From Planctomicrobium piriforme (lineage in GTDB: Bacteria; Planctomycetota; Planctomycetia; Planctomycetales; Planctomycetaceae): a stretch of 34,659 bases of DNA. Shown here piece after piece: positions 16,191 through 34,551 of this stretch. The notes beneath the pieces are model-generated. The model did no database searches. It had not been told where the DNA came from and saw nothing but the letters and a program-made list of their open reading frames with translations. The position numbers and the translations under genes were made by a program. The stretch spans positions 1 to 34,659 of the forward strand of contig CAMATH010000089.1 of the NCBI GenBank assembly GCA_945860955.1, given 5' to 3'. Each line of letters starts with the position of its first letter. Position 1 is the first letter of the stretch.

Positions 16191-17660
16191 GTGCCGTTTG
16201 GAATTCCCCGGGGTTATCGATCCCCAATCATGCTGGCCAGCCTGCTCCTGCTGGTGTTGTGCGTGGCGCTGGCCGTCTCACTGTACCAGCAGCAGAGCGA
16301 GATTTCCGAACTGCTGAACGACCGCATTGATTTTCGCCGGCAGACGGCCCAACTCGAAGAGAGTCTGATTGACCTGAGTGCGCTGCTCGGAGATCAGGTG
16401 GAAAAAGTCGCCGCGCTTCATGAGCGAATTGAAGAAAATGTTGAAACCGTTCGGCGGAGTGCCGACCGCCCGGAACAAAGGGAGATGGCCTCGGAACTGG
16501 TCGCCCGTTGGAAGGAATATCGTCGGCGGTGGGATCAGCGTCCCCCGATCAGTTCCGCCGACCACGATGCCGCCGTGCTGGATGCGGCCCGGGAACTGAC
16601 CACGACGGCCGACCTCTGTGAAAAATTGCATTTGAAGACGGTCAAAGAGATTGAAACCGCCGCCAACGGGCACACGCTGGTATTGCGTGAACTCGCGTTA
16701 GGAATTGGCGCGGTCGGCCTGTTCGGCAGCCTGGCCGGAGTCGGACTCGGGTACGTCGCAGCCGGGCGCTGGCAACGGACCATGCACAAGTTGCAGGTGC
16801 ATATTCGACGGGCGGCTGGAAAGCTGGGGACCACGGTTCCCGATATTGTGGTCTCGGGTGAGGGAGGCATGCAGGAAATCGACGATCAGATGCGCGGCCT
16901 GGCGCGGCGTGTGGAAGAAGTCGTCGAGCAGTTGCAGCAGCGGGAAATTGAGGTACTGCGGACGGAGCAACTCGCCGCCGTCGGCCAACTCGCCGCTGGC
17001 GTGGCGCATGAGATTCGCAATCCTCTAACGTCGATCAAGCTGCTGGTTCAGGCGAGTCGCGAAGACGAAGCGACCCCCGGAATGAATGCCGAGGATCTCG
17101 AAGTGGTGGAACGGGAAATCCGCCGAATGGAAGGCTCGTTGCAGACATTTCTCGACTTCGCGAGGCCCCCCAAGGTCGAACGCCGCGAGGTCGATCTGGC
17201 GACAATCGTCGACCAGACTCTCGATCTCACACGCGGTCGGGCGGCGAAACAACAGGTCGCCGTCCGGTTTCTGAAACCAACACAGCCGGTGCGATTTCTG
17301 GTCGACCCGGAACAAATGCGTCAGGTATTGCTCAACTTGGTTCTCAACGCGCTCGACGCGATGCCCGAGGGGGGGATGCTGACGATTGAACTCACCTGCG
17401 CTTCCGATGCGATCGTCCAATTTGAAGTCCGTGACACGGGGCCGGGGATCAGTCCCTCGGTGGAGCCACGGCTTTTCCAGCCGTTTCAAAGCGAAAAAGA
17501 GACGGGTGTCGGGTTGGGCCTGGTCATTTCGCGGCGGATTGTCGAGGACCACGGGGGAACTCTCACGGCACGGAATCATACCGCGGGCGGTGCGTGCTTC
17601 ACCGTCAGCCTTCCCATTCAGAAGATGAGATCGGCCAATGCTCTCAGTGTTGCTGGTTGA
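16191..17660 (+). CDS. membrane sensor histidine kinase, NtrB/ZraS-like
   Basis: The sensor of a two-component system, 489 residues. The first membrane helix is at residues ~14-32. A periplasmic, mainly helical sensor region of ~130 residues (~33-165, coiled-coil-like) follows, then a second membrane helix (~167-190) and a HAMP-like/coiled linker. The kinase core has the H-box GQLAAGVAHEIRNPLTS with phospho-acceptor His273, N-box LLNLVLNALDAMPEGG, G1 VRDTGPGISP and G2 GVGLGLVISRRIVEDHGG. The start is the GTG at 16191, preceded by AAGGA at 16181-16185. It overlaps the response regulator gene by 23 bases, so the two are a matched pair. The signal is unknown; the downstream carbon-uptake genes suggest inorganic-carbon status, by inference only. 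Confidence 0.93.
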   Translation: MPFGIPRGYRSPIMLASLLLLVLCVALAVSLYQQQSEISELLNDRIDFRRQTAQLEESLIDLSALLGDQVEKVAALHERIEENVETVRRSADRPEQREMASELVARWKEYRRRWDQRPPISSADHDAAVLDAARELTTTADLCEKLHLKTVKEIETAANGHTLVLRELALGIGAVGLFGSLAGVGLGYVAAGRWQRTMHKLQVHIRRAAGKLGTTVPDIVVSGEGGMQEIDDQMRGLARRVEEVVEQLQQREIEVLRTEQLAAVGQLAAGVAHEIRNPLTSIKLLVQASREDEATPGMNAEDLEVVEREIRRMEGSLQTFLDFARPPKVERREVDLATIVDQTLDLTRGRAAKQQVAVRFLKPTQPVRFLVDPEQMRQVLLNLVLNALDAMPEGGMLTIELTCASDAIVQFEVRDTGPGISPSVEPRLFQPFQSEKETGVGLGLVISRRIVEDHGGTLTARNHTAGGACFTVSLPIQKMRSANALSVAG

Positions 17661-19110
17661 TGATGAACCTTCGATTCAGCACGCGTTTCGCAGAGTGTTG
17701 CGAGACGACGGCTGGCAGTTGCACGTCGCGTCGACGGCCGCCCAGGCGGTCGCCGAGATGCAGTCAATCCGCCCCGATGTGGTGGTCCTGGATGTGCATT
17801 TACCCGACGCGTCGGGTCTGGAGACGTTTGATCGACTGAAAGCGGTCGACGCGCGGACCCCCGTAATTCTGATCACGGGTCACGGAACGACCGATCTGGC
17901 GATCGAAGCGATCAAACGCGGAGCGTACGAATACCTGCTCAAGCCGCTCGATCTTTCCACGCTCCGCGGGTTGATTCGCCAGGCCGGGGAAAGTAGTCAG
18001 CGGATGCACGTTCCCGCGGTACTGCCCGAGGACGTGGTTCAGGCCGACGAGGGGGACCGGTTGATTGGTCGCTGCCCGGCGATGCAGGTCGTCTACAAAC
18101 AAATTGGCCGGGTTGCCGCTCAGGACGTCACGGTCCTGATCCTCGGCGAAAGCGGCACGGGAAAAGAACTGGTCGCCCGCGCGATCTACCAGCACAGCCA
18201 CCGCGCCGACAAGCCGTTTTTGGCGATCAATTGCGCTTCGATCCCCGAGAATCTGCTGGAAAGTGAGCTGTTCGGACACGAACGCGGAGCATTCACCGGT
18301 GCCGATCGCAAGCGGATCGGGAAGTTCGAACAGTGTCACGGCGGGACGATTTTTCTTGACGAAGTAGGGGACATGGCCCCACTCACGCAGACGAAAATTC
18401 TGCGACTGATGCAGGAGCAGCGTTTCGAACGGGTCGGAGGAAACGAAACAATTCAAACCGACGTTCGGATGATCGCCGCCACCAACGCCGACCTCGAACG
18501 CCAGGTCGCCTCTGGTAAATTCCGGGGTGACCTGCACTTTCGCCTCAACGTGTTTTCGATTCATCTGCCTCCGTTACGAGAGCGGGGGGATGACATCGTT
18601 CACCTGGTGGAACACTACCTGCGGCGCTACAGCCGCGAACTCAATCGCGAGGTTCAGGGGGTTGCGCCGGAAGCACTCGACGTTTTGCGGAATTATCCGT
18701 GGCCTGGAAATGTTCGTGAACTGCAAAGTGTGATCAAGCAAGTCCTGTTGCAGTTGCGCGATCCCGTGGTCACTCTCGCCGACATTCCCTCGTCGTTGCT
18801 GCCCTCGTCCCCCAACCTTTCAACCACTCCCCTCGGTTCCGACGGAGACCTGCTGGCCGCCGAGTGGAGCCGTTTCGTCGATGAGCGGATCGTCGCCGGT
18901 TCCGAGAATCTGTACGCCGAGGCGGTCGCCGCGATGGAACATCAAGTGATCACCCGTGTCCTTCGGCACACAGGCGGTAACCAATTGCAAGCGGCACGGA
19001 TCCTGGGGATGGCACGCAACAGCCTGCGAACACGAATTCGCGCCCTGAGAATCAACATTGGCCGAACAATTGACGTCGATCCCGATTCCGAAGACGGAGA
19101 CGTGTCGTGA
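17638..19110 (+). CDS. sigma-54-dependent response regulator, NtrC family
   Basis: A 490-residue enhancer-binding activator. The receiver domain (1-120) has the acidic pocket DDE (8-10), phospho-acceptor Asp52 and Lys102. The AAA+ domain has Walker A GESGTGKE (170-177), the sigma-54-contacting loop GAFTGA (217-222), Walker B GGTIFLDEVGD and an arginine-finger region FRLNVFSIHLPPLRER. A C-terminal Fis-type helix-turn-helix is RHTGGNQLQAARILGMARNS. With all ATPase and sigma-54 elements intact, it should activate -24/-12 promoters. One such promoter lies 151 bases after its stop codon, in front of the dab genes. It starts at the ATG at 17638 inside the 3' end of the kinase gene, so translation is coupled. 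Confidence 0.95.
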   Translation: MLSVLLVDDEPSIQHAFRRVLRDDGWQLHVASTAAQAVAEMQSIRPDVVVLDVHLPDASGLETFDRLKAVDARTPVILITGHGTTDLAIEAIKRGAYEYLLKPLDLSTLRGLIRQAGESSQRMHVPAVLPEDVVQADEGDRLIGRCPAMQVVYKQIGRVAAQDVTVLILGESGTGKELVARAIYQHSHRADKPFLAINCASIPENLLESELFGHERGAFTGADRKRIGKFEQCHGGTIFLDEVGDMAPLTQTKILRLMQEQRFERVGGNETIQTDVRMIAATNADLERQVASGKFRGDLHFRLNVFSIHLPPLRERGDDIVHLVEHYLRRYSRELNREVQGVAPEALDVLRNYPWPGNVRELQSVIKQVLLQLRDPVVTLADIPSSLLPSSPNLSTTPLGSDGDLLAAEWSRFVDERIVAGSENLYAEAVAAMEHQVITRVLRHTGGNQLQAARILGMARNSLRTRIRALRINIGRTIDVDPDSEDGDVS

Positions 19111-19211
19111 TCACATTTTGACCACACTGCTCAGTTGTATTACGTTTCGCTCGGTTTGAGCCCCATGGATTGTCGATAGTCCCAATTCCAAAAAATGAGA
19201 TTCTGGAGAAT
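19107..19211. promoter_or_regulatory. candidate enhancer dyads upstream of the sigma-54 promoter
   Basis: Two palindromes lie upstream of the -24/-12 element. GTGATCAC (19107-19114) overlaps the regulator's stop codon. ATTCT-GG-AGAAT (19200-19211) would be about 80-90 bases upstream of the predicted transcription start, a usual distance for NtrC-type binding sites. Short palindromes occur by chance, so support is weak. Confidence 0.25.
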
Positions 19212-19261
19212 GCCGTCCACTTGTTATCCATCGTGAGTTCACCCGATGTGATTTGGGAAAA

Positions 19262-19278
19262 TTGGCACCGGTTGTGCT
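19262..19278 (+). promoter_or_regulatory. sigma-54 (-24/-12) promoter of the dab genes
   Basis: TTGGCAC-CGGTT-GTGCT matches the consensus YTGGCAC-N5-TTGCW with one mismatch (the first T of TTGC is G), and with the exact GG-to-GC spacing. The predicted transcription start is near 19289, about 60 bases before the dabA TTG. It is the only match of this quality that I found, and the gene before it encodes a GAFTGA-bearing activator, so the two probably belong together. Confidence 0.7.
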
Positions 19279-19350
19279 TGATTCCCCTCGTCGGTCCCGT
19301 GCCGAACTTCCCCCGCCATCGCGAAGGGACGTCCCACGCCAGGAACACTG

Positions 19351-22300
19351 TTGTCGCCCCACTTCCGAATGTCATCCAGTCCTACTGCGGTTGCCCTCGG
19401 CGGTTCTGAACACAATTCCTCGGTATCGGCCGATCCGCAGGCCGACTTACGGCGGCAGATCACAGAGCTGGCCGAACTCCTGCCCGCCCAGGGGCCGATC
19501 ACCGCATTTGTTTTCTTGAACACGCTCCAGGGGCTGGAAGACCTGCAGTACGATGCCGCAGTCGCGCTCGGTTCGAAACTGTTCGGCTGCGAGCCCTATC
19601 TTTCGGAAGACAAGTACCATGATTTCATGACCCACGATCGCATCCGCGCCGAAGATCTCGCGGAGGTGATTCGTGACGAGCTGGGGCGAGACTGCGATCG
19701 CAAAATCGGACCCAGCGGAACATTGTTTGAGATGCGGCTGGCGATGTTACGCTACCGCGTCCGATTGGGGCCGCCCGAAGAACTCGCGTGGTATATCGCC
19801 GAGACCGACGCGCTTGCGAAAATGCGCGACGACCTTCCCGCCGGCGCGCGAACCCAGTTCTTGAAGGAAAGCCGTAAGTGGATTCGCCAGGCCCTGGCCG
19901 AGACACGAATTCCCGGTGTTCCCGGGGCACGGAGGATGTTGCCAGAGCCGTACCAGTCAGCGACGATCGCGGCAATCGAGAAGTGGAACGATGCGACCTG
20001 GGAAACGCTCTCTCTCGAAGCGCTGTGGCAAGTTTGCGTCCACGGCGTCCGGGGAGTGAACGGGACGGGCGCCACCGCTGCGGTACCAGTCCGGCCGCGC
20101 GATATTCTTCGTGAGACCGCCGGTCATGACGCCGACCTCTTGGTGCATGACGTCCTGGTCCGGCTGTGTGCGGCGTTTGTCGACCAGGGACAGGCGGGTT
20201 GGGCGTTGCCGGGAAAAGAGTTCGGGCTGTTTCATTCGTTCCTGGAACTGTATCTGGAGCCTGGGCAGATCGAACGCCCCTGGATGGCGGGTGTGGCAGC
20301 GGAACTGCGGCTGCTGAAACGCGACGAGGTGAGTCCGCTGGAGAGCTTGAGGCGATCGCTGGATGATCTGGGAATCCCCCCGGAACGCGAACGAGAATTC
20401 CTGACGGCGACACTGTTGGCGCTGCGTGGCTGGGCTGGCCTGATCTGGCAACTGGAAAGCCGGGGAGACCGGGTGGCACACCCCGCGCCCCCCGGGACTT
20501 TGATTGAATTCCTCGCTGTTCGGCTGATCCTCGATCGCTATGCGGCGCGCTTCATGGCCAAACGCGATCTGGACTTCACCGGGCCTTTGGCCAAGCTGCC
20601 CGAAATGCTCGCCCGCGAATCCGAAGTCGGTCGGGCACAGCGGACCGAGACCCGGGCGCTCCTGGTTTTTCAAGTCGCCCAGGTGTGCGGCTGGCCGGTC
20701 GGTTCGCTGGTGGCGATGTCGACGGAGCAGTGGCGCGAACTGGTTCACGAAGTCGAAGCGTACGGTTCGCTCGAACGTCGGCGGACGCTGCATTCGGCGT
20801 ATGAAATGCAGTTCCGCGTGCGGGCACTCGACGCGATCTCGATTCACGCGGTCCCACCCGCCAAGCGAGTTCCGAACCCCCGATTCCAGGCGGTGTTTTG
20901 CATCGACACCCGCGAAGAGTCCTTTCGCCGCCATCTGGAAGAGGTCTGCCCGCAGGCCGAGACATTCGCGACAGCGGGCTTCTTCGGTGTTCCGATCTAC
21001 TACAAGGGGGTTGCCGACGCCCACTACTCGACGCTCTGTCCGATTGTGGTGAAGCCACAACACTGGCTGGTTGAGGATGTGGTCTATACGCAGGAAGAAG
21101 TGAATCGCCGACGACAGCGGACCCGTCGGGCGATTGGCAGCGCCCAACAACGCATGACCGAAGGGACGCGCGGCGTCGCCAGTGGGGCGGTGTTGACCGC
21201 CGGGCTGGGGGTTCTGGCCTCCATTCCCCTTGTCGCGGGAGTGCTGTTTCCCCGTTTGACGTCGAAGGTGCAATCCACCGCGGGGCGGTTGATGGAACCC
21301 CCGCGGATGACGCGTCTGAGATTGGAACGGACCGATGAAAAAGCAGGACCGGAGGGGGGCGGAATCGGATTCAACCTGGATGAGATGACGTTTTTCGCCG
21401 AGAAGACACTTCGGGACATCGGTTTGCTCGATGGATTCGCCCCGCTGGTCTTCTTTTTCGGGCACGGATCGTTCTGCCTCAACAATCCCCACAAGTCGGC
21501 TTACGACTGCGGTGCCTGTTCGGGTGGAGCGGGAAATCCCAATGCCCGAGCGCTGGCGGCGATGCTCAACGACGTGCGCGTCCGACAAAACCTGAAGGTG
21601 CGCGGCATCGACATCCCGCACACAACAACCTTTATCGGCGGCCTGCACAACACCTGTGCCGACTCACTCACCTATCACGAGCTGGAGATGCTCCCCGCGT
21701 TCCAGCGCGAAGCGTTCGAATTCGCCCGCGAGAAACTCGAAGAGACGTGCGAACGCAACGCGCATGAACGGTGTCGGAGATTCCATTCGGCCCCCTTGAA
21801 CCTGACCCGCCCAGCGGCCCATCGACATGTCGAGAACCGCGCGGTCGATTTGGCACAGACCCGACCCGAGTTTGGGAACGCCACCAATGCGATGTGTATT
21901 GTCGGCCGACGGTCAAGAACGCGTGGCCTGTACCTCGATCGACGCAGCTTTCTGATGTCGTACGACCCGACGCAGGACGATGCCGACTTTACCGTTCTCG
22001 GACGAACGCTCGGCGCGGTGGTCTTCGTCTGCTCGGGAATCAATTTGCAGTACAACTTTTCGTACATCGACTCACCGGGATGGGGCAGCGGGACAAAACT
22101 GCCGCACAACATCACGTCCCTACTGGGAGTGATGGACGGGGCGGCCAGCGATCTGCGGACGGGGCTTCCGTGGCAAGGAGTCGAAATCCACGAGCCGATG
22201 CGCTGTCTGTTCGTCATTGAGGCCCCCCCCGAAGCGCTCCTCAGAATCATGGGGAGAAATCCGGTCGTCCGGCGGTTGATCGCCAATGACTGGGTGCAAC

Positions 22301-22500
22301 TTTCACTGCTCTCTCCGGATTCCAACCAGATCCTGGTGTATCGCAACGGTCAGTTCGAACCTTACACGCCCCGGTCGACGCGATTGCCGACGACTCCCAA
22401 TTCGTACGACTGGTACCACGGCCACCGCGAACACTTGCCGTTCGCTGTGTTGAGTCCCCGCGGCGATGCGCCAGACGCGGGGAAGGGAGGTGCGGCATGA
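19351..22500 (+). CDS. dabA: DabA, DUF2309 inorganic-carbon transporter subunit
   Basis: The cytosolic, beta-carbonic-anhydrase-like subunit of the Dab complex. Work on Halothiobacillus neapolitanus showed that DabA binds zinc through Cys351, Asp353, His524 and Cys539 and, with DabB, accumulates inorganic carbon using the ion gradient. The matching residues are Cys517 and Asp519 in VFCIDTREESF, His705 in FFGHGSFC and Cys720 in YDCGACSGG; the His-Cys spacing (15) is identical. At 1049 residues it is longer than the ~830-residue H. neapolitanus protein, mainly before the first cysteine. The start is a TTG at 19351 with AGGAA at 19341-19345; an ATG at 19369 is an alternative. It overlaps dabB by four bases (ATGA). 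Confidence 0.92.
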   Translation: MSPHFRMSSSPTAVALGGSEHNSSVSADPQADLRRQITELAELLPAQGPITAFVFLNTLQGLEDLQYDAAVALGSKLFGCEPYLSEDKYHDFMTHDRIRAEDLAEVIRDELGRDCDRKIGPSGTLFEMRLAMLRYRVRLGPPEELAWYIAETDALAKMRDDLPAGARTQFLKESRKWIRQALAETRIPGVPGARRMLPEPYQSATIAAIEKWNDATWETLSLEALWQVCVHGVRGVNGTGATAAVPVRPRDILRETAGHDADLLVHDVLVRLCAAFVDQGQAGWALPGKEFGLFHSFLELYLEPGQIERPWMAGVAAELRLLKRDEVSPLESLRRSLDDLGIPPEREREFLTATLLALRGWAGLIWQLESRGDRVAHPAPPGTLIEFLAVRLILDRYAARFMAKRDLDFTGPLAKLPEMLARESEVGRAQRTETRALLVFQVAQVCGWPVGSLVAMSTEQWRELVHEVEAYGSLERRRTLHSAYEMQFRVRALDAISIHAVPPAKRVPNPRFQAVFCIDTREESFRRHLEEVCPQAETFATAGFFGVPIYYKGVADAHYSTLCPIVVKPQHWLVEDVVYTQEEVNRRRQRTRRAIGSAQQRMTEGTRGVASGAVLTAGLGVLASIPLVAGVLFPRLTSKVQSTAGRLMEPPRMTRLRLERTDEKAGPEGGGIGFNLDEMTFFAEKTLRDIGLLDGFAPLVFFFGHGSFCLNNPHKSAYDCGACSGGAGNPNARALAAMLNDVRVRQNLKVRGIDIPHTTTFIGGLHNTCADSLTYHELEMLPAFQREAFEFAREKLEETCERNAHERCRRFHSAPLNLTRPAAHRHVENRAVDLAQTRPEFGNATNAMCIVGRRSRTRGLYLDRRSFLMSYDPTQDDADFTVLGRTLGAVVFVCSGINLQYNFSYIDSPGWGSGTKLPHNITSLLGVMDGAASDLRTGLPWQGVEIHEPMRCLFVIEAPPEALLRIMGRNPVVRRLIANDWVQLSLLSPDSNQILVYRNGQFEPYTPRSTRLPTTPNSYDWYHGHREHLPFAVLSPRGDAPDAGKGGAA

Positions 22501-23960
22501 CACTCGAAGGAATCTTCACCTTACTCGGGATGATCGTCGTCCTGGCCCCCGCTGTCTTGCTGATCATTCTGGGCGTATCGTCGCTCGTGGGTTGGAAACT
22601 GACGGAAGCGGGAATCAGTCGGAGCGCGCAGGTCACAATTTGGATGGGACTGATCGCGGCGATCGCCGTTCTGACGTTGATGCTGACCACGGGCAAGCGG
22701 CACGTCCAGGTACTGGACGGTGACTGGGTCGCCATTCCTCACTACCACTTTGCCGTCAAACTGATGTTCGATCGGCTGTCGGTTCCGTTCGTGATTCTGG
22801 CGTTCCTGTTGTGCGGTACGATTGGCGCATTCGCGACGCGCTACATGCACAATGAGCCGGGGTTCAACCGGTTTTTCGTCCTGTTTTCAATGTTCCTTCT
22901 GGGGATCGTCGTCGCGGCGCTCGCGGGAACGATTGAGACCCTGTTCGCTGGCTGGGAGCTGGTGGGACTCTCCTCGGCAATGCTGGTGGCGTTTTACCAT
23001 GAACGCCCCGCTCCGGTGAAAAACGGACTGCACGTCTGGACTGTGTACCGCGTTTCGGACGCGGCGTTGCTCCTGGCGTCGGTCGTGTTACATCACCTGA
23101 ACAGCCACGGAGACTTTGACAAATTGACGATGGGTGAAGCGAACTGGCCCTATGGTACCGCCGCGCTGGAACCGGGATGGGCAACTCTGGCGGGTTTGCT
23201 GCTGGTGGTCGCGGCGGCAGGCAAGTCGGCGCTGATCCCGTTCTCTGGCTGGTTGCCCCGGGCGATGGAAGGTCCGACTCCCTCCAGTGCCGTTTTTTAT
23301 GGTGCCCTGTCGGTGCATCTCGGTGCCTACTTGTTGCTGCGAGTCAGTCCGCTTCTCGAAGCGGCTCCGGGCGTTTGCGCAGTGATTGTTGTCCTGGGGT
23401 TGTCGTCATCCGCGGTCGCCTCGCTGATCATGAAAGTGCAGACCGATATCAAGTCGCAACTGTCGTTCGCGTCGCTGACTCAAGTGGGGATCATCGTCAC
23501 AGAAATTGGCGTGTCAGGTCTGCTCGTCCATTTCGGTGCCGATGTCGACCTGCCGTTGGGACTCACGCTGGCTCAGATTGGGGTTTGGTTCCGCTACGTC
23601 GCCTTGCTGCACATTCTTGGACATGCCTGCTGGCGGACGTTGCAATTCCTGCGGGCTCCGACGTTTCTCTACGACCACAAAGTCCTGGAAAACGCGATCG
23701 GAGCGCACGAGGTGCCGCCAACTCGCGGTTGGGAGCGCTGGATTCCCCAAGCCTCTCGCGCGAAGTTCTACCGCTTCGCATTGGAGCGAGGATTCCTGGA
23801 TGAATGGCTGATTCGCCTCGTCGTATCACCCGTGAGGGAGTTTTTTGAGAAGTGCGATCGTTTGGAACGCGGGGTGGTCGAAGAGGTCGGAGGAGCGCCT
23901 CTGCCTTCTTCCAAGCATGAGAAGGCCGAATGGTCTTCCGTGCTGCAGGAGCATTCATGA
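22497..23960 (+). CDS. dabB: DabB, NuoL/MrpA-like proton-conducting subunit
   Basis: The integral membrane partner of DabA, related to the antiporter-like subunits of complex I. It is thought to supply cation (H+ or Na+) flow that drives CO2 hydration by DabA. The 487-residue protein has roughly 11-12 membrane helices. Family residues include the Glu in TLFAGWELVGLSS, the Lys in AAGKSALIPFSGWLPRAME, the following GPTPSSAVFYG, and the Lys residues of MKVQTDIKSQLSFASLTQVG. It starts with the ATG of an ATGA overlap with dabA and ends with another ATGA overlap with the next gene; together these show a tightly coupled operon. Confidence 0.9.
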   Translation: MTLEGIFTLLGMIVVLAPAVLLIILGVSSLVGWKLTEAGISRSAQVTIWMGLIAAIAVLTLMLTTGKRHVQVLDGDWVAIPHYHFAVKLMFDRLSVPFVILAFLLCGTIGAFATRYMHNEPGFNRFFVLFSMFLLGIVVAALAGTIETLFAGWELVGLSSAMLVAFYHERPAPVKNGLHVWTVYRVSDAALLLASVVLHHLNSHGDFDKLTMGEANWPYGTAALEPGWATLAGLLLVVAAAGKSALIPFSGWLPRAMEGPTPSSAVFYGALSVHLGAYLLLRVSPLLEAAPGVCAVIVVLGLSSSAVASLIMKVQTDIKSQLSFASLTQVGIIVTEIGVSGLLVHFGADVDLPLGLTLAQIGVWFRYVALLHILGHACWRTLQFLRAPTFLYDHKVLENAIGAHEVPPTRGWERWIPQASRAKFYRFALERGFLDEWLIRLVVSPVREFFEKCDRLERGVVEEVGGAPLPSSKHEKAEWSSVLQEHS

Positions 23961-25387
23961 ACGATACCTTCTGGTTGGCCCTCTCGGTCGCGGTCCCTCT
24001 GTTGGGGGCGGTTATTGTCAGCCGATTTTCGGATCCCGGGATCGCCCGTCGCGCGGCTCTGGTCGCCAACTCGCTGACGTTGATCGCCGCGCTGATCGCC
24101 TGGGGATTGTTTGAATTCGCGAGAGGCCCACTGGCTGAGATTGGATCGCCCGGTTGGCCCGGTGCCTGGCTGTCCGTCGATCAATTGAGCGCTCCGCTCG
24201 GTTCATTGTCGGCCCTGCTGTTTCTGGTGACCACACTGGTCACGTTGCGAACAAAAATCCGACGTTTCTCGTTCTCGGCGACACTCGTTGCCGAGGCGAT
24301 CACACTCGCGACACTCGCCTGCCGGGAGCCTTGGGGGGTCGTCACGCTACTTTCGCTGGGAACGATCCTACCGTGGCTGGAATTGCGATCCCGCAAACAG
24401 CCGGTCCGGATGTACGTGCTGCACATGGGGGCGTTCGTCGTTCTCATGGTTCTGGGCCAGATGCTGGAAGACTACGAAGGGGAAAACCGGTTCATCCAGT
24501 GGTGGGCGAGCATTCCGCTGCTGCTGGCGGTTCTCATCCGCAGCGGAACCGCTCCGTTCCATATGTGGGTCACCGACCTGTTTGAACGCTCGTCGTTCGG
24601 CGGGGCGCTGCTCTACATGACACCGATGCTGGCGGCCTACGCCGTCGTGCGTCTGGTGGTTCCCGTGTCGCCCGACTGGGTTCTCCGCTGGATCGCGCTG
24701 CTCTCGTTGGTGACCGTGTTCTAAACAGCGGGGCTCGCGACGGTGCAGCGCGAGGCGCGGCGATTTTTCTGTTGCCTGTTCCTCAGTCACTCCGGACTGG
24801 TCCTGGTGGGACTGGAACTGATGACCCCGTTGGGGTTGACCGGCGCGCTGTTCATCTGGATCTCGGTCGGACTCAGTCTGGCGGGCTTTGGTCTCACCTT
24901 GCGCGCGGTGGAATCGCGGCGTGGCCGCCTGTATTTCGACGAGTTTCAAGGACTCTACGAACACTCGGCTTCGCTTGCGGTCTTCTACTCGCTCACGGGA
25001 CTGGCATGCGTCGGCTTTCCGGGAACGATCAGTTTCGTGGGAACGGAGTTGCTGTTTGATGGTGTGGTCGAAACGTATCCACTCTCCGGCGCGGTGGTCG
25101 TGATCGCGGCGGCGTTCAATGGGATCGCCATCGTGCGGACGTACTTTCGGTTGTTCACCGGAACCCGGCATCAGACCAACGTCTCGTTGCAGATCCGCAC
25201 GCGGGAAAAAGTTGCGGTGCTGACACTCGCGGCACTGATTCTGATTGGCGGAATCTTCCCCCACCCAGGCGTCCGCTCGCGATTCGAGGCGGCACGCGAG
25301 TTGCTCTCTCAATTGAAGTCGACCGACTCGGAGAATTCGACTGAGCCCGCAGGGGACAGCCACGAGGACTCCGGGCACGGTCACTAA
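23957..25387 (+). pseudogene. second NuoL/M-like subunit interrupted by an in-frame TAA
   Basis: A third coupled gene of the dab operon: the ATG overlaps the dabB stop (ATGA), and AGGAG at 23947-23951 is well placed. It encodes another antiporter-like, complex-I-type membrane subunit. One frame runs across the whole region but contains a single TAA at 24722-24724. The upstream part (255 residues) ends ...LLSLVTVF. The downstream part resumes at once with [17 protein letters not shown] and [14 protein letters not shown], then continues to a His-rich end (HEDSGHGH). The stop stands where relatives usually have Tyr, so TAC to TAA explains it. It could be a recent null allele, read-through, a two-polypeptide gene (re-initiation at the GTG at 24743) or a sequencing error. 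Confidence 0.75.
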
Positions 25388-25497: not shown

Positions 25498-27285
25498 ATG
25501 TCGGCTGATCAGAAACTGAACACACTGGAAACAGAACGCCCCGGCTCCTTCTGGAACCTGACTCGTCCCAACATTCTGTCTGGATTCCTGGTGTTTTTGA
25601 TCGCGATGCCGTTGTGCCTCGCCATCGCCAAAGCGAGCAACTTCCCCCCCATCGCGGGAATCTGGACCGCGGTCATCGGCGGCATTCTGACGTCGTTCAT
25701 CAGCAACTCGCAGTTGACGATCAAAGGGCCCGCCGCCGGCTTGATTGTGATTGTCGCGGGTGCGGTGATCGATCTCGGCAAGGAGGCCCTTCCCGCTTTG
25801 CCAGAACCGGTCGCCCAGACGATGGAGCAAGAGGGAAAAACAAAGGTTGAGATCGCCGACACTCTGGAGGCGGAGCAGATCAAAACCGGCTACCGCCTGG
25901 CGCTGGGAGTTGGTGTGGTCGCCGGAGTGGTCCAGATCGGTTTTGCGTTGTTGCGGGCCGGGAAGCTGGGGGATTTCTTTCCCCTGTCGGCGGTCCATGG
26001 CATGCTGGCATCAATCGGCATCATCATCATTTCCAAACAGGCGTATCCCGTGTTCGGCGTGACTCCCGAAAAGGGGGCGGAGCCATTGCAACTGCTGGCG
26101 GCGCTTCCCGGCGCGATCCTGGACCTCAATCCAGAGATCGCGTGCATTGGAATGATCAGCCTGCTGATTCTGTTCGGCCTGCCCTGGATCAAGGTGGGTT
26201 GGATTCGAAAAATCCCCGCCCCCATTGTTGTTCTGCTGATGGCGGTACCGTTGGGAGTCTGGTTCGATCTCAATGACGAACATGTCTATTCATTCATTCT
26301 CGGAGGAGCCGAGAAACTGTTTAACATTGGACCGAAGTTCCTCGTCGAGATGCCCGAGGTGCTGAAGGATCCCGGCAAAGCGTTTTTCTTGCCGGACTTC
26401 AGTGCTGTCGGTTCGTTGACTTTCTGGAAGTACGTGGCGATGTTCTCGATCATCGCGAGCCTGGAATCGTTGTTGAGCGCCAAAGCGATTGACCTGATCG
26501 ACCCCCAGCGTCGAAAGACCGACTTCAATCGCGACCTGCTGGCGTGCGGCGTCGCGAACGCGCTGTGCGCGTCGATCGGTGCGCTGCCGATGATCTCGGA
26601 AATCGTCCGCAGCAAGGCGAACGTCGACAACGGCGCGACAAATCGCACGTCGAACCTGTTTCACGGACTGTTCCTGCTCGCGTTCGTGCTGCTGGTTCCC
26701 AATCTGATTCATCGCATTCCGCTCGCGGCGCTCGGGGCGATGCTGGTCTTCACCGGCTTCCGCTTGGCGCATCCCCGGGAGTTCATCAGCACGTGGCGAG
26801 TGGGGCCGGAACAGCTCGCGATTTTTGTCACGCCGATTGTCACCACGCTGGCGACGGACCTGCTGATTGGGATCGCGGCCGGGATTATCCTGAAGCTGGT
26901 GTTCCACGTCTGGCACGGACGATCGCTGCGGGATCTGTTCCGGAATGACGTCGAGATCATGGAGCAACCCGATGGCAGCACCCTCGTGATAATCCATGGC
27001 AGCGCGGTCTTCAGCAACTGGCTCGGGCTGAAGGCGATGTTGACACGAATCGCGTCACAGCATGACGTGGTCGTTGACTTGAGCGCGACGCGTCTGATCG
27101 ACCACAGTACGATGGAAAAACTCCATGAAATGGAGCAAGACATTCAGCGCGAGGGACGTCGATTTGAGATCCGGGGATTGGAAGAACACCTTCCGTTCTC
27201 CGGTCATCCCCTCGCAGGCCGCAAGCGCGCCGTTGGCCTCGGTCCTATCGGGGCCGACTCCGAAATTCGTCCCGTGAATCGCTGA
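25498..27285 (+). CDS. SulP-family anion transporter with STAS domain
   Basis: A 595-residue inner-membrane SulP (SLC26-type) carrier. Membrane helices cover residues ~25-470, with FLIAMPLCLAIAKASNFPP in TM1, QLTIKGPAAGLIVIVAG in TM3 and SLESLLSAKAIDLIDP in TM8, whose Ser-Glu is typical of the substrate site. A cytosolic STAS domain (~490-575) has DLSATRLIDHST. Some SulP proteins (BicA) carry bicarbonate with Na+, others sulfate; the sequence alone does not decide. Its place 110 bases after the dab operon on the same strand favours bicarbonate, by inference. About 35 extra residues (~100-135) lie between TM3 and TM4. The ATG at 25498 follows a GGGAG-containing leader. Confidence 0.88.
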   Translation: MSADQKLNTLETERPGSFWNLTRPNILSGFLVFLIAMPLCLAIAKASNFPPIAGIWTAVIGGILTSFISNSQLTIKGPAAGLIVIVAGAVIDLGKEALPALPEPVAQTMEQEGKTKVEIADTLEAEQIKTGYRLALGVGVVAGVVQIGFALLRAGKLGDFFPLSAVHGMLASIGIIIISKQAYPVFGVTPEKGAEPLQLLAALPGAILDLNPEIACIGMISLLILFGLPWIKVGWIRKIPAPIVVLLMAVPLGVWFDLNDEHVYSFILGGAEKLFNIGPKFLVEMPEVLKDPGKAFFLPDFSAVGSLTFWKYVAMFSIIASLESLLSAKAIDLIDPQRRKTDFNRDLLACGVANALCASIGALPMISEIVRSKANVDNGATNRTSNLFHGLFLLAFVLLVPNLIHRIPLAALGAMLVFTGFRLAHPREFISTWRVGPEQLAIFVTPIVTTLATDLLIGIAAGIILKLVFHVWHGRSLRDLFRNDVEIMEQPDGSTLVIIHGSAVFSNWLGLKAMLTRIASQHDVVVDLSATRLIDHSTMEKLHEMEQDIQREGRRFEIRGLEEHLPFSGHPLAGRKRAVGLGPIGADSEIRPVNR

Positions 27286-27303: not shown

Positions 27304-27351
27304 GTTCCAGGAAATTCCCGGAACTTCCCGGTCAGGCTTTGATCGCCTGAC
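27304..27351. terminator. two hairpins between the convergent SulP genes
   Basis: GTTCC-N11-GGAAC (27304-27324, with an inner GGAA/TTCC match) and a perfect 7-bp stem GTCAGGC-TTTGATC-GCCTGAC (27331-27351) that overlaps the minus-strand stop codon. Only 46 bases separate the two genes, so these may serve as a two-way terminator. Confidence 0.45.
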
Positions 27352-29272
27352 CAGATTGATCCTGCCGTCGGAACCGCGCCCGAAGTGTCTCCCAGTCAAG
27401 GACCAGTCCGGCCCCCGTCTCCTGGTGCCTGGCCCCCCAGGTCATCAAGAGTTCCAGACACGCGTGGTCGATGTACTCGAGCTTCTCGAAATCCACATGC
27501 AATTCGACTCCCGGGGGAACCCGTTCGAGTGCCGCGGCGAGTTTTGGCAATCGAATGAACGTGGCGGCCCCAGTGAGCCGGAGTGCCGCGCGCCCCCCTT
27601 TCGGGTCCAGGTCCAGCCGCACCTGCAACTGAGAAAACCTGTGCAGCAATTTCAACGCCGACAGGGTGATCCCCACCAAGACCCCGGTCAGCAGATCCTC
27701 GAAAATGATCGTCAGGATTGTTGCCGCATAGATCGCGACTTCATCCCAGCCAAAGACTCGCAACTCGCGAATCGACCGAACGTCAATCAGACGGTAGCCG
27801 GTATAGACCAGGATCGCAGCCAGGCAACTCGTCGGAATTTGACGGAGCAGAGACGACAGAAAACTCACAAACACCAGCAGCCAGATTCCATGCAGGATCG
27901 CGGACAGCCGGGTTCGGGCACCCGACTGCACGTTGGCGGAACTCCGCACAATGACCCCCGTCATCGGCAACGCGCCCACGAGTCCGCAGAGCAGATTGCC
28001 AACGCCTTGCGCCCAGAGTTCCTTGTCGTAGCGAGTCCGAGCCCCACGGTGCATCTGGTCGACGGCGGATGCGCACAGCAAAGTCTCCGCGCTCGCCACC
28101 ACGGCCATCAACAGCCCCCCCTGAAAAACCTGTCTCCATGGGGCGTTTGTCAATACGGACCGGGTCGGAAGAGTCAGATCGCCCGAAAGGCTCTCTGGCA
28201 CATCGACGTAGTAGACTGGAAGATCCAGACAGGTCGCGGTAATAGCGATCACAAGAACGGCCACCAGCGCCGCGGGGACCACCCGCCAGGAACGTGGCGT
28301 CAGTTCCTTCCAAAGGATCAGGATCGCAATGGTTCCCAGCCCCAGCAGACCGGAAAATTGCGGACTCTTCAAGCTCGCCAACAACATGTCGACCGCTGCG
28401 ACTGATCGGTGGATCTCGGCCGTCGCCGTCACGGGATCCTCGTTCGCCACGGCGCGTGCCGCACGCTCGGTCGCCCCCACCGCATCGCCAACCACTGCCC
28501 CCAAATCGATTTTCGCCCCGGCCAGTTGGTCCGCCAAGCGTGCGGCGGTCTCGGCCAGGCGGGACTGCGTCTCGGCAATTTCCTTCCAGCCAGCGGAGTC
28601 TACGGAAGCGGGTTCATTGCCAGTCGGAATCCGCGCTCCCAACGCCTCGAGCGCGGCGCGAGCCCGTTGACGGAGATTTGTCTGTTCGGTCGCGAGCCGC
28701 CGACAGGTGTTGAGAGCGACAATCCGGGCTTTTCGTTCTTCCGGAGCGGGAAGAACCAACGGCCGCCAAGCGCTGCGCACCGCCTCAGGAATCTCCGCAA
28801 GATTCACCGCGCCAGATCCCGGTGCCTTGCTGTCGAACATCGCGTGGAATTGACCGCCGAGAATCAGAAACCCAATCCCGGCGAGCATTCCGCGGATCAC
28901 CGCCGGTGAGACCGCGCGAAACCACTGCCCCAGTCCCGTCACGCCGGCGAAAATCTGGAGAATGCCCGCGATCGCGACGACCAGTGATAGATTCGCGAGA
29001 CCGAGACGTTCACCCAACTCGACGACGATCACAGTCAACCCGGCGGCGGGACCACTGACCTGGAGGGGGCAACCGGCCAGACACCCCACGACCACACCTC
29101 CGATCACGCCGGACAAGATTCCTGCGGTAACCGGCACGCCGGACGCGATCGCGACCCCCATGCACAGTGGCAGCGCCACGAGAAACACCACAATCGATGC
29201 CAGGAAATCCTTCTGGATTGTCCTTGCGAGACCCGTGGCGGACGAGTTCTGCACCTGCACGAGACTGGTCAC
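27332..29272 (-). CDS. SulP-family anion transporter with a large helical insertion
   Basis: A second, distinct SulP carrier of 646 residues. TM1 has VVFLVALPLCMGVAIASGVP, TM3 has PLQVSGPAAGLTVIVVE, and TM8 has VVASAETLLCASAVDQMHRG; the C-terminal STAS domain (~555-625) has DFEKLEYIDHACLE. Between the fifth and sixth membrane helices (residues ~165-303, bases ~28364-28780) is an Ala/Arg/Glu-rich helical insertion of ~140 residues that SulP proteins normally lack. It faces the first SulP gene and may share its substrate, bicarbonate or sulfate. It starts at the ATG at 29270-29272. The small membrane protein gene 69 bases upstream on the same strand may be co-transcribed. Confidence 0.88.
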   Translation of the reverse strand: MTSLVQVQNSSATGLARTIQKDFLASIVVFLVALPLCMGVAIASGVPVTAGILSGVIGGVVVGCLAGCPLQVSGPAAGLTVIVVELGERLGLANLSLVVAIAGILQIFAGVTGLGQWFRAVSPAVIRGMLAGIGFLILGGQFHAMFDSKAPGSGAVNLAEIPEAVRSAWRPLVLPAPEERKARIVALNTCRRLATEQTNLRQRARAALEALGARIPTGNEPASVDSAGWKEIAETQSRLAETAARLADQLAGAKIDLGAVVGDAVGATERAARAVANEDPVTATAEIHRSVAAVDMLLASLKSPQFSGLLGLGTIAILILWKELTPRSWRVVPAALVAVLVIAITATCLDLPVYYVDVPESLSGDLTLPTRSVLTNAPWRQVFQGGLLMAVVASAETLLCASAVDQMHRGARTRYDKELWAQGVGNLLCGLVGALPMTGVIVRSSANVQSGARTRLSAILHGIWLLVFVSFLSSLLRQIPTSCLAAILVYTGYRLIDVRSIRELRVFGWDEVAIYAATILTIIFEDLLTGVLVGITLSALKLLHRFSQLQVRLDLDPKGGRAALRLTGAATFIRLPKLAAALERVPPGVELHVDFEKLEYIDHACLELLMTWGARHQETGAGLVLDWETLRARFRRQDQSGQAIKA

Positions 29273-30544: not shown

Positions 30545-31672
30545 TTATAGCGAATGCCCGGGGTTGGCCATAGTTTGAAGTGAGGATTTTCGATTTCCCC
30601 GGAAGAATCCGAAGTGGCGAAGGGCGAGCAGCGCCAAGCAAGCGATGCCAACAAGCATCGCCGACGATGGCTCCGGTGTGACAAATATCAAATTCGGACC
30701 GAAGACCCCGATTTCAGTCGGAAAGTTCAATCCGGGGTAGTCAAAACCTGACGCAGTACCGCGCTGGGCACCCCGGAATCCCAGCCCCGATGCCGGGCGA
30801 AACGTATTGAACGGGGTCCCGGTCGCGTCGGTTCGGTAGGCGTCTGGACTACCGGCCTCATAAAATGCACCAAGGACGTAGGTACCCGCATCCAGATAAA
30901 TCAATTGATCAGTTGTGCTGAACCGCCACGTTCCCGCCGGTTCGGCCCCTGCGTAACCATCACTGTTCGCGTTGCCGATGGTCGTTTGGTAAATCAGTGT
31001 CGGGCCGATCATTGGATCGGTGAGTTTCCAAAGTCCGATCTGGTGCGAATCGATTCCGTTGGCTCCTTCATCCCACAGCCCGAAAGCCCCGACCGCTTTC
31101 GTTGAAGTCAGATCGAAACGCCATCCGACATTCACGCCCTGGTTCGGAATTACGGGAGCTCCCCCGGTAAAGTCCGTACCCAAAGTTCCGGGGGCGACGG
31201 TGACGAAAACAGACGTTCCCAGTTGTCTTGTGCTGATCGGACTCCCTAGGGAAGGATTCACCTGAAGATCAACTTGATACCGTACGGGGATACTGCTTGA
31301 TGGTGTTCGCATGGTTTTAAGTTCCTCGTCGACTGCGTTGGATTTGTTAATTGGTAACGGATTTCTAAACGGAGTTTTTAAGGTAACCGTCCCGACAGAG
31401 AGTTTGTTTCCGACGCTTTGCGCACGACTAATCTTTTTGGGGGCCAAGGCGGTGACCGGATTTGAGGTTGCGAATGTATAACTGTTGGAGTCGCCTGGGC
31501 TGTCGGGGTTATTGATATTCCAGTGGATGACCTTTGACAGGCCCGCGACAATCGTTTCGATGGGGTTCTCTGGGCGAATTGTGATTGGTCCTGCCGTTGC
31601 GACTGTGCTCCAAGTGAAAAGGAACATACTCAAACTCAGCGTCAACAGATGGGATGTCTTATTGTGCAACAT
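30545..31672 (-). CDS. PEP-CTERM secreted protein
   Basis: A 375-residue exported protein. It has a signal peptide (residues 1-~28, [20 protein letters not shown]) and a body rich in Thr, Gly and Pro that contains a probable beta-sandwich. The C-terminal sorting signal is [20 protein letters not shown] followed by basic [11 protein letters not shown]. Exosortase would cut and process such a tail, probably anchoring or releasing the protein at the surface. An extra 14-residue tail follows the basic cluster, which is unusual. AAGGAG lies 10 bases before the ATG (31670-31672). The body has no recognised catalytic motif. Exosortase is not encoded here. Confidence 0.85.
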
Positions 31673-31740
31673 GGCGAATCGTCTCCTTGGGTTCGTGGGG
31701 AAGTGGTAAAGTTGGTGAATCAGGAAGTCGATGTCAACGA

Positions 31741-31759
31741 TCTTTCCAGCCTGGAAAGA
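31741..31759. promoter_or_regulatory. perfect 9-bp palindrome between kinase and PEP-CTERM gene
   Basis: TCTTTCCAG-C-CTGGAAAGA, seven bases beyond the kinase stop codon. On the minus strand TTGACA (31732-31737) comes just after it, but without a good -10. As RNA it is an 8-bp stem with a 3-base loop and could be a terminator; as DNA it could be an operator for the PEP-CTERM gene. Confidence 0.4.
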
Positions 31760-31765
31760 CATGCT

Positions 31766-34384
31766 TCAGGGAATCACGATTTGAAACCATTTGGTCTCCA
31801 AATCGATCTGCCGAAAATCCATCTCCATAGCCCAGTTGTTCAGCGATCCCATCTGGAGAGTTTTTTCCCAGGACTGACTAGCGGTATCGAAGTGCTGTTT
31901 CGCTTGCTCTTTCACGGCATCGTCGCTATTGAGTATCGCAAATGTGGCCGCTGCCCGTGCCCGCAGAAACAGAGCAGCACAGAGTTCGTACTCAAGAGGG
32001 GGCTTAAGTCCAGCCTTAGCAACGTTGATACAAGACTTCAACTCGTCGCAATGGGCCGAAATTTTCTTCTCGATGTCAGCCAGATCCATTTCCGATGCTT
32101 GCAGCCGTCGCTGGAACAGATCGATTTTGCATCCCAGTTCCCACAAAGTCAATCGCCGCAATAGCGGACTTCGCCGAAATAGCTGATGGTCGCGCTCGGC
32201 ATCCGCCCAATTCGCATCCCCCCACGTCGCGTCCTCCCGTGCGAGGTTTCGTAAGAGTTGCTCCAGTTCCTCCCGGGCGTCTCGCGCGCGCTTCGCGGTG
32301 TCTCGGTAGTCGTCTTCGATTCGATGTGTCAGACGCTCCGCAATTGCCGGACACGTGGCACGAAGTGCATTGCGCGCATGTTCGTAGAATTGCGCCCTCT
32401 CATACATAGCCATGCTCAACTGCCACAGGCTTTTGCAAATGTGCAAGGGAATGGGCGATTTGGCGTCACGTCGGACCTTCAGATCTTCCTGCAATAACAG
32501 GACCATTTTGTGTTCGATTCTCAGTCCGTCAAACGCTCGTTGAATCTCATCCAGCTCGCCGGCTGGCAATCCCTTTGCCTCCTGGTGGCGTTGTAATTTA
32601 TCGATCGTCTCCAGCCAAGGATCAAGTGTCGTTCTTTGTTTGCAGCGATTGTCCAGTTGATCACGATAGTCCTTATGAAGACCACAGGGATCGCTCTCCC
32701 AGGTGTCACCAAGGCGAAACGAGTCGTCGCGATCGCGAAGCAGTCGGTCGCGTACCTCATCGTTCGCGGGCAGGGGATCCTGTTTCTTCGGCTGGAGGTC
32801 CGCCAGATCGCGGAGTTCGTGGAGTTCCAGAAGTGCCTCGGGCATTTCGGTTTTCGCTTTGTGAAAGAGTTCTTCGAATTCACCACACTTTTTTTTCAGG
32901 TTCGACCAATCGCCGTTTCCGGCCAGATTCCGAAGCTCTGCCAGGCGATTTTCAATCATTAGGAGATCCTGGGTTTGGAAGACAGGCGGCTTCTGGGCGG
33001 CAATCCAAACCGCCGCTGCCCCGACCGTGGCCATCAATCCCATCGCGATCACCAGGATCGCTCGCATTCGCGCCTGGCGTCGCATCGGGCGACTCAATGG
33101 AAGTTGGGCGAGTGCGGTAGCTGCATCAGAGAAAGGTGGATGTGAGCCGGATCGGCAAAGCCGGTCGACACATCGCAGGAGTCGCTCGTGTTCGGCATCG
33201 GCGATTTTTGAGCGCCCTCCTTTCCCCGTGGCAGCGACAAAAAACTCCCGAGTTGGCTTGCCGGTCGATGCCACCCAAATCGTGAGACCCAGCGCGAACA
33301 GGTCGTCGGTCGAATCCCCGCGTGGACCTTCGGGTGGCCAATACGCTCGCGTGCCCCGCGCTCCTGTTGCTTCGCGCTCGGGACTGGATTTTATCGCCAG
33401 GCCCATATCTCCCAGTTTCCAGACTCCGTCAATCCGCAGGATGTTGGCTGGCTTCACGTCGCAGTGGACGATCTGGTTTCGATGGAGCCTCTCCAACGCG
33501 GACAGCAGTTGCCGCAGAAGGTCGAGCGATTCCTCGACGGTCAGCTTGCCACGCTGGGCAATTTCCAACTCGAGCGTATGCGGGCGGTACTCTTCGGACA
33601 GGGCGTTTGTTGGTGGAGCTGTCGCCGTTCCCGAGGCTGATTGATCCGGACGATAGGCGTCGGCGAGAGGCATCGTGTAGTACACGAATTTCGTCACCTT
33701 GCCCATGTGCAAAATCGGAACCAGGTGCGGATGCCCCCCGGCGGATCGCTTGAACTGGCTCACCCCGGCGACTTCGATTCCTGAACCTCTTCCCAGCACT
33801 TTGACAGCGGCCTCACTCCCATCATGGGCGTTTTTCCCCAGATACACCTTGCCGAAGCCACCACGCCCGATTTCTCGAAGGAGATAGTAATCTGCGATTC
33901 TCGGCAGTCGAGGTCGATTCGCACCACTTGTTTCGGAAACCGGCTTCAGATCCGTTGGATCCTGCGCATTTCGAGGGGTCGTGAGAGCGAGATCATTCGC
34001 CGCAAGCAGATTTGCGACAATACAGGTTGTCTCCCTCGAATCCGATTTATCGGAATTGGAGCCTGCAGTTTTGATCGGCAGCGCATCGTCGGCGACGTCG
34101 TGTTCCACCGTGGGAAACCCGCACGAATCGGAAAACTCAAGGTATTCCCAGACTTCTTTCGCCAACAAAGGAAATCGCCGTTCAATCTCGACAGCCAGAG
34201 CGGATTTCGATTCTCGATCACGACGGAGTATGATCTCACCGACCAGAAGCCACTTTGTGGTTTCCGAGTCCCCACTCCCCTCAGGAAAGCGGTGCAGCAA
34301 TTCCTCGACGGTCGGCCGTCCACCACGAGCCCACTCGTCTCCCTGGACCTCCAGCACCTGATCAAGCGTTACCGTCTCCGTCAT
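31766..34384 (-). CDS. membrane Ser/Thr protein kinase with large C-terminal helical domain
   Basis: An 872-residue Hanks-type kinase. An N-terminal region of ~165 residues is followed by the kinase domain (~166-430): glycine loop IGRGGFGKVYLG (~172-183), catalytic AAVK (Lys195), HCDVKPAN (Asp309) and DMG (326-328) in place of the usual DFG. One membrane helix (~441-461) precedes a ~410-residue, largely helical, charged C-terminal region with no known domain. The Lys and both Asp are present, so it is probably active. Planctomycetes often pair such kinases with ECF sigma factors, and the partial gene upstream may be one. The ATG at 34384 is preferred; the open upstream frame to 34531 shows no domain. 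Confidence 0.9.
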   Translation of the reverse strand: MTETVTLDQVLEVQGDEWARGGRPTVEELLHRFPEGSGDSETTKWLLVGEIILRRDRESKSALAVEIERRFPLLAKEVWEYLEFSDSCGFPTVEHDVADDALPIKTAGSNSDKSDSRETTCIVANLLAANDLALTTPRNAQDPTDLKPVSETSGANRPRLPRIADYYLLREIGRGGFGKVYLGKNAHDGSEAAVKVLGRGSGIEVAGVSQFKRSAGGHPHLVPILHMGKVTKFVYYTMPLADAYRPDQSASGTATAPPTNALSEEYRPHTLELEIAQRGKLTVEESLDLLRQLLSALERLHRNQIVHCDVKPANILRIDGVWKLGDMGLAIKSSPEREATGARGTRAYWPPEGPRGDSTDDLFALGLTIWVASTGKPTREFFVAATGKGGRSKIADAEHERLLRCVDRLCRSGSHPPFSDAATALAQLPLSRPMRRQARMRAILVIAMGLMATVGAAAVWIAAQKPPVFQTQDLLMIENRLAELRNLAGNGDWSNLKKKCGEFEELFHKAKTEMPEALLELHELRDLADLQPKKQDPLPANDEVRDRLLRDRDDSFRLGDTWESDPCGLHKDYRDQLDNRCKQRTTLDPWLETIDKLQRHQEAKGLPAGELDEIQRAFDGLRIEHKMVLLLQEDLKVRRDAKSPIPLHICKSLWQLSMAMYERAQFYEHARNALRATCPAIAERLTHRIEDDYRDTAKRARDAREELEQLLRNLAREDATWGDANWADAERDHQLFRRSPLLRRLTLWELGCKIDLFQRRLQASEMDLADIEKKISAHCDELKSCINVAKAGLKPPLEYELCAALFLRARAAATFAILNSDDAVKEQAKQHFDTASQSWEKTLQMGSLNNWAMEMDFRQIDLETKWFQIVIP

Positions 34385-34551
34385 GATTTCGAAATCCAGA
34401 CACTTTGGGAGTACCCAGGCCACCGCTTGCAAGAATTTCGCAGCACGAGACTGTTGGGTGTGACTCGTAGACAAAACGCAGTGAGAAACGCGAAGCGCAC
34501 AGAAACCAAGAAAAAAAATGGAATCTGGCACGTCATCGTCGCCTCCCCGGC

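Follow-up and report, generated by a model that had tools for sequence, protein, structure and literature searches.

In chemoautotrophs, DAB-type pumps for inorganic carbon are under LysR-type control, and, to our knowledge, little is known about how a shortage of CO2 or bicarbonate is sensed outside the well-studied autotrophs. For the DabA2 subunit of the DabA2/DabB2 pump, zinc ligands and an Asp-Arg dyad are named in the available portion of PMC13144422. A sequence-only reading of the DNA analyzed here had supposed that few or no carbon-uptake systems under sigma-54 control are known, and the literature sampled agrees: in extracts of open-licence PMC articles (subscription papers and preprints lie outside this scope), no account of sigma-54 control of DabA or of a CO2 concentrating mechanism was found. 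PMC5328954, PMC9053815, PMC9080137, and PMC3162934 treat other genes or, in their extracts, make no mention of planctomycetes or bicarbonate, and PMC12628692 reports the expression of DIC transporters, its extract containing no sigma or two-component terms. The parts of the system that we describe are known; their combination and target set are apparently undescribed.

The window, by which we mean the whole 34,659-nucleotide stretch of Planctomicrobium piriforme that was analyzed (contig CAMATH010000089.1), carries dabA, encoding an inorganic-carbon uptake subunit, at 19369..22500 on the forward strand (PF10070, E 5.9e-226), the strand of all oriented window features below unless stated otherwise. 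Residues 474-997 of the protein align to the DabA2 chain 9rd0_A (E 2.8e-72), and C511-x-D513-x-R515, H699, and C714 fall on like motifs of that chain, which we equate with the zinc ligands and dyad as given in the portion of PMC13144422 cited above. Adjoining dabA is a gene for a NuoL-like, DabB-like membrane subunit (22497..23960; Proton_antipo_M/N, PF00361/PF00662), and by domain, motif, and partner the two genes are predicted to encode a DAB-type pump with putative CO2 uptake activity. In this assembly, a second NuoL-like gene (23930..25387) is interrupted by an in-frame stop (24722-24724); the frame is open at the counterpart position in a sister species, and the stop reflects either an error of the assembly or a lesion of recent origin. 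Inside the end of this gene, 208 bp before sulP1, lies a second candidate sigma-54 site, CGGCAC-N5-TTGCT (25290..25305). The SulP-family transporter encoded by sulP1 (25498..27285; PF00916, with a STAS_2 match) scores below the cut-offs of the DauA, sulP, and BicA models (89.8 bits against 880 for BicA, NF050096), so that bicarbonate is a putative substrate. A second, convergent SulP-family gene on the reverse strand (27332..29272; Pfam) has a best upstream sigma-54-like score of 4.8, and the genome's second dabA, of the short type (G000:C12:73768-76086, locus L111), is without a sigma-54-like site upstream. By eye in the list of open reading frames, the reverse strand further holds genes for a protein with a PEP-CTERM-like tail (30545-31762) and a protein-kinase-like protein (31766-34531).

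The sigma-54 (-24/-12) promoter predicted for dabA occupies 19262-19278, which reads TTGGCACCGGTTGTGCT, or TTGGCAC-N5-GTGCT. Against the consensus TGGCAC-N5-TTGCW, both the GG and the GC dinucleotide and the N5 spacing are intact, and the one mismatch falls in the -12 element, where a G takes the place of the leading T of TTGC, confirming the near-perfect match that had been read from the letters. The full TTGC, a trait of the consensus and not strictly a defining one, is replaced by GTGC in both the window and the sister species. The site lies about 150 bp past the stop codon of a response-regulator gene and 90 bp ahead of the dabA ATG at 19369, the approximate distance given earlier. A dabA 5' leader at 19289..19368 is predicted, its start placed from the promoter position, and the RNA fold over 19289-19400 is not unusual (z 0.82).

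Such a match might be idle if a housekeeping promoter, or read-through from the kinase and regulator genes, accounts for dabA transcription. Across the window there are 147 matches with at most three mismatches, against a shuffle mean of 128.7, and three of the 147 are single-mismatch sites, the one at 19262-19278 included; genome-wide, 213 places match with no more than one mismatch, a count below the 339 of a backward-read control, so the motif by itself is not enriched and position decides. An equally high score is expected 0.004 times by chance on the same strand of the 259-bp gap, under a weight matrix that approximates the consensus. No sigma-70-like promoter was found in 18950-19450, where 0.3 is expected, which we count as weak support. 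Sigma-54-like matches inside kinase genes (e.g., 17128), which recur in relatives, were discarded because a protein motif, M-E-x-S-L-Q, probably dictates their letters.

Comparison within the genus bears further on the chance reading. In the sister species (G079), whose regulator is 97% identical to that of the window, the spacer at 19126-19261 retains 93/136 positions (68%), whereas the promoter retains 16/17 and the leader (19279-19368) 84/90; a palindrome at 19107-19125 keeps 17/19, and the last part of the regulator gene 374/411. The conserved block of the gap starts at the -24 element, which argues against an idle match. The other two of the three same-genus relatives, G046 and G099, have short gaps between regulator and dabA (133 and 81 bp) with no sigma-54 site in them, as the chance reading would have it, and dabA may be read through there from the kinase and regulator genes; the loss in close relatives that the sequence-only reading had set as a refuting condition is thus partly borne out. 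Candidate sites in G099 lie ~220 bp before the kinase gene and ~150 bp before the sulP1 homologue, and G046 has a weaker one ahead of a sulP.

The block before the ATG could instead be coding, its conservation driven by a DabA protein with an upstream start: the dabA frame is open upstream to ~19282 (1072 aa), with a TTG at 19351. The promoter, however, lies wholly upstream of that open frame and is nonetheless conserved at 16 of 17 positions, and the DabA domain starts at residue 31 counted from the ATG, so that an N-terminal extension is not needed. We consider a coding origin of the conservation very improbable.

Upstream of the gap lie the genes of a two-component system. The sensor histidine kinase (16191..17660; Pfam HisKA and HATPase_c, H-box HEIRNPL) has no Pfam match in its N-terminal part, and its homologues, 39-58% identical in local alignments, adjoin the regulator gene in most loci read. 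The activator gene that the earlier reading had placed before dabA is indeed there: 17638..19110 encodes an NtrC-type response regulator with a receiver, an AAA+ domain, and a Fis-type HTH (Response_reg, Sigma54_activat, HTH_8), in which GAFTGA, Walker A, and the receiver Asp motif are all present. Its best NCBIfam model is ntrC (TIGR01818), at 486.2 bits below the cut-off of 558.6. The genome encodes the sigma factor itself, with one PF04552 match (E 9e-63) in 8.4 Mb, as the reading required, and NtrC-type regulators match at 14 places at E<=1e-60.

We then compared dabA loci across relatives. Of 120 genomes sampled from the family, 90 have DabA, and we fetched 80 regions, which with few exceptions surround long-type DabA genes. 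Sites scoring 14 bits or more precede dabA in 15 of 76 upstream regions, compared with 29 of 3900 background windows from the same loci (the 76 omit L107, L108, and L111, with partial or short-type DabA, L068 at a contig edge, and loci with less than 150 bp upstream). These sites fall mostly into two groups, A and B. In group A the window's regulator and kinase stand directly before dabA, at seven loci including the window, one of which holds just the regulator's end at a contig edge. One unexplained exception, L106, has a site of 15.7 bits before dabA with neither regulator adjacent. Among 30 dabA genes without an adjacent regulator (50-58% identical to the window's, at partly overlapping loci), most scores are below 10, the exceptions being L165 (12.8) and L158, L170, and L169 (10.3-10.8).

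Searching outward from the regulator, we found a close match in 47 of 297 genomes of the class and read 39 of the 56 listed places, plus the window and four others. Fifteen of the 39 type-A loci have sulP1 within 5 kb, and 9 of these also have dabA, in the order dabA<-HK-RR->sulP (HK, kinase; RR, regulator). Three loci of another family (L200, L205, L221) show this divergent order with sites on both sides; in the window's own family, the order in L126 is HK-RR-sulP, with a site between RR and sulP, and in L127 a pair of sulP genes runs divergently from HK-RR, each preceded by a site.

To count the association, we required a strict core, GGCAY-N5-TTGC, in the 350 bp preceding targets that lie within 5 kb of type-A orthologues, leaving out genes with less than ~120 bp upstream or more than 5 kb from the regulator. 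The core precedes 9 of 16 group A dabA genes but only 2 of 49 dabA genes assigned to neither regulator (Fisher p 1.5e-5; these controls take in second copies, L063 and L066, from genomes with the type-B regulator), and 17 of 21 group A sulP genes against 0 of 31 sulP genes unlinked to a type-A regulator (p 2.7e-10). Collapsing at 70% protein identity leaves 7/13 vs. 1/36 for dabA (p 1.4e-4) and 8/9 vs. 0/19 for sulP (p 2.9e-6). The window's own site fails the strict core because GTGC replaces TTGC; with GTGC allowed, the dabA count rises to 11/16. The association holds across two families, which speaks against a chance match, and on the whole we think it improbable that the site before dabA is idle. 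We regard the promoter at 19262-19278 as likely real and used by the adjacent regulator, with a probability of about 0.8.

A candidate binding site for this regulator is the palindrome G-TGATC-N7-GACCA-C at 19107..19125, which overlaps the regulator's stop codon, lies 155 bp ahead of the promoter, and is proposed on its recurrence and conservation. In the window, TGRTC-N7-GAYCA matches once (0.18 expected; at least one match in 16 of 100 shuffles), and genome-wide it matches 49 times, against 20 for a control pattern. No common palindrome was found in a first set of 11 type-A upstream regions; it emerged when gapped palindromes were enumerated in 31 upstream regions of group A targets whose site scores 9.4 bits or more, where TGGTC-N7-GACCA, with one arm mismatch allowed, occurs in 19 (five-shuffle maximum, 5). 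A conserved TTCC...CTGGAG block at ~19185-19208, noticed by eye, was set aside after this palindrome emerged. TGRTC-N7-GAYCA lies upstream of 20 of 37 dabA and sulP targets, 78-349 bp ahead of the sigma-54 site, and, in a 700-bp window, at 8/16 group A dabA and 13/21 sulP genes, compared with 2/49 and 0/31 controls.

Most of these palindromes (15/20) lie in the tail of the regulator gene itself, where the letters are largely fixed because the protein motif W-S-x-x-D-Q/H lies there, a motif also seen in relatives without sulP or dabA nearby. The five outside the tail are those of the window and its sister species, at the stop codon, and those upstream of divergent dabA genes in L205, L221, and L224, the last of which is contained in the kinase's longest open frame. 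Ahead of the window's sulP1 site, no palindrome with at most one mismatch was found within 450 bp.

The promoter may also be real while the regulator answers nitrogen or stress, with carbon as one output, or while another activator acts on the site. The ntrC model is the regulator's best match (486 bits, the cut-off being 558.6), any of the 14 NtrC-type places in the genome could supply an activator, related regulators precede other genes, and 24 of the 39 further type-A loci lack both dabA and sulP within 5 kb, although some of these end at contig edges. Yet the window's regulator falls below the NtrC cut-off, and in a regulator tree it belongs to a 34-row clade (support 97/91) in which 23 rows show linkage to dabA or sulP and 11 do not, compared with 0 of 18 type-A rows outside the clade. 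Four loci of family f93 (L227, L229, L234, L235) have type-A-like regulators together with the palindrome and a sigma-54 site, with WD40-repeat or unknown genes downstream; with palindrome and site before other genes in some relatives, the signal need not be carbon. We hold this alternative to be possible though on balance unlikely, and we continue to favor use of the promoter by the adjacent regulator.

Group B dabA genes, from other genera, combine a sigma-54 site with a different palindrome, TTGCA-N6/7-TGCA; of the 20 loci examined for it, 13 have it 130-225 bp upstream of the site. The regulator of this group (P0001), also NtrC-type, shares just 35-41% identity with the window's and forms a separate clade (100/100). 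Orthologues (61-100% identity) occur in 21 of 98 genomes searched, the next listed matches being at most 46% identical; the first 24 of these genomes were chosen partly for a site or an adjacent regulator (17 had one) and the other 74 were not. These 74 added G097, G118, and G098, with dabA but no good site, and G007, which has a type-B regulator with an HlyD-like neighbor (L112) and no detected dabA in the genome. With G097, G118, and G098 included, the core precedes 13/20 group B dabA genes vs. 2/49 controls and the palindrome 13/20 vs. 1/49; the 350-bp limit skips the type-B sites of L087 and L100, since in these two the longest open frame has a different start. The type-B regulator is far from dabA in G004 and G066, so adjacency is not the explanation of the link in those genomes. 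Across the phylum, the type-B regulator occurs in 7 of 294 genomes, all but one in the window's family; the genome outside it (G235) has the regulator, a divergent dabA, and a site (L237).

A beta-carbonic anhydrase gene (PF00484) is divergent from dabA, within ~420 bp, at 5 of the 20 group B loci (L047, L083, L087, L095, L051), and one adjoins the type-B regulator in L116. The coordinates noted for beta-carbonic anhydrase genes by dabA or the type-B regulator are L122:4049-4711 and L116:9535-10200, and a Porin_O_P gene (L122:5654-7063) is divergent from the type-B kinase gene. At other loci the regulator divergent from dabA is of the OmpR type (Response_reg and Trans_reg_C in 7/7 tested), and the best sigma-54-like score before these dabA genes ranges from 0.5 to 8.3 bits; sigma-54 sites therefore go with sigma-54-type activators and not with two-component genes generally. 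This OmpR-type arrangement, seen at L034, L035, L046, L055, L071, L076, and L096, several with a kinase gene beyond, constitutes a third type of linkage between two-component genes and DAB.

The best overall reading of the locus, judged from sequence, is that of a sigma-54 two-component regulon for inorganic-carbon uptake. From the observed sequences, domains, and comparative associations we infer that the kinase (16191-17660) would phosphorylate the regulator (17638-19110), which would then bind the palindrome overlapping the end of its own gene; by a DNA loop, its GAFTGA-bearing AAA+ ring would open RNA polymerase-sigma-54 at the promoter. Transcription from ~19289 would cover dabA and the membrane partner genes, and sulP1 is perhaps also driven by the same regulator, via 25290-25305. 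The likely purpose would be to induce CO2 and bicarbonate uptake when inorganic carbon is short, carbon limitation being a plausible signal.

More broadly, we find it rather probable that Planctomycetia possess a dedicated inorganic-carbon sigma-54 two-component regulon that was put together two or more times from distinct activators: type A, with operator TGRTC-N7-GAYCA and targets dabA and sulP, and type B, with operator TTGCA-N6/7-TGCA and target dabA, the beta-carbonic anhydrase gene being divergent in 5/20. That two distinct activators are linked to one pump suggests repeated selection for tight, activator-gated control. If true, this would make carbon limitation an input to sigma-54 in Planctomycetia, and such a sigma-54 system, whose sensor, regulator, operator candidate, and promoter are all named, offers a direct handle on the planctomycete response to carbon shortage.

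The locus resembles described systems part by part and differs from each of them. It shares with the DabA2/DabB2 pump the homology of DabA, the aligned zinc-site and Asp-Arg motifs, and an adjoining NuoL-like DabB partner, whereas its DabA is longer (1043 vs. 870 aa) and it has two NuoL-like genes, a sulP downstream, and a sigma-54 site. Like SulP/BicA transporters, the sulP1 product has PF00916 and a STAS_2 match, but it scores far below the BicA equivalog cut-off, and its substrate is putative. With NtrC, AtoC, and ZraR systems the window shares a receiver, a GAFTGA-bearing AAA+ domain, and a Fis-type HTH, a partner kinase, and a palindrome standing 155 bp ahead of a -24/-12 promoter; it differs in that its regulator scores below the cut-offs of all three models and is linked to DAB and SulP genes.
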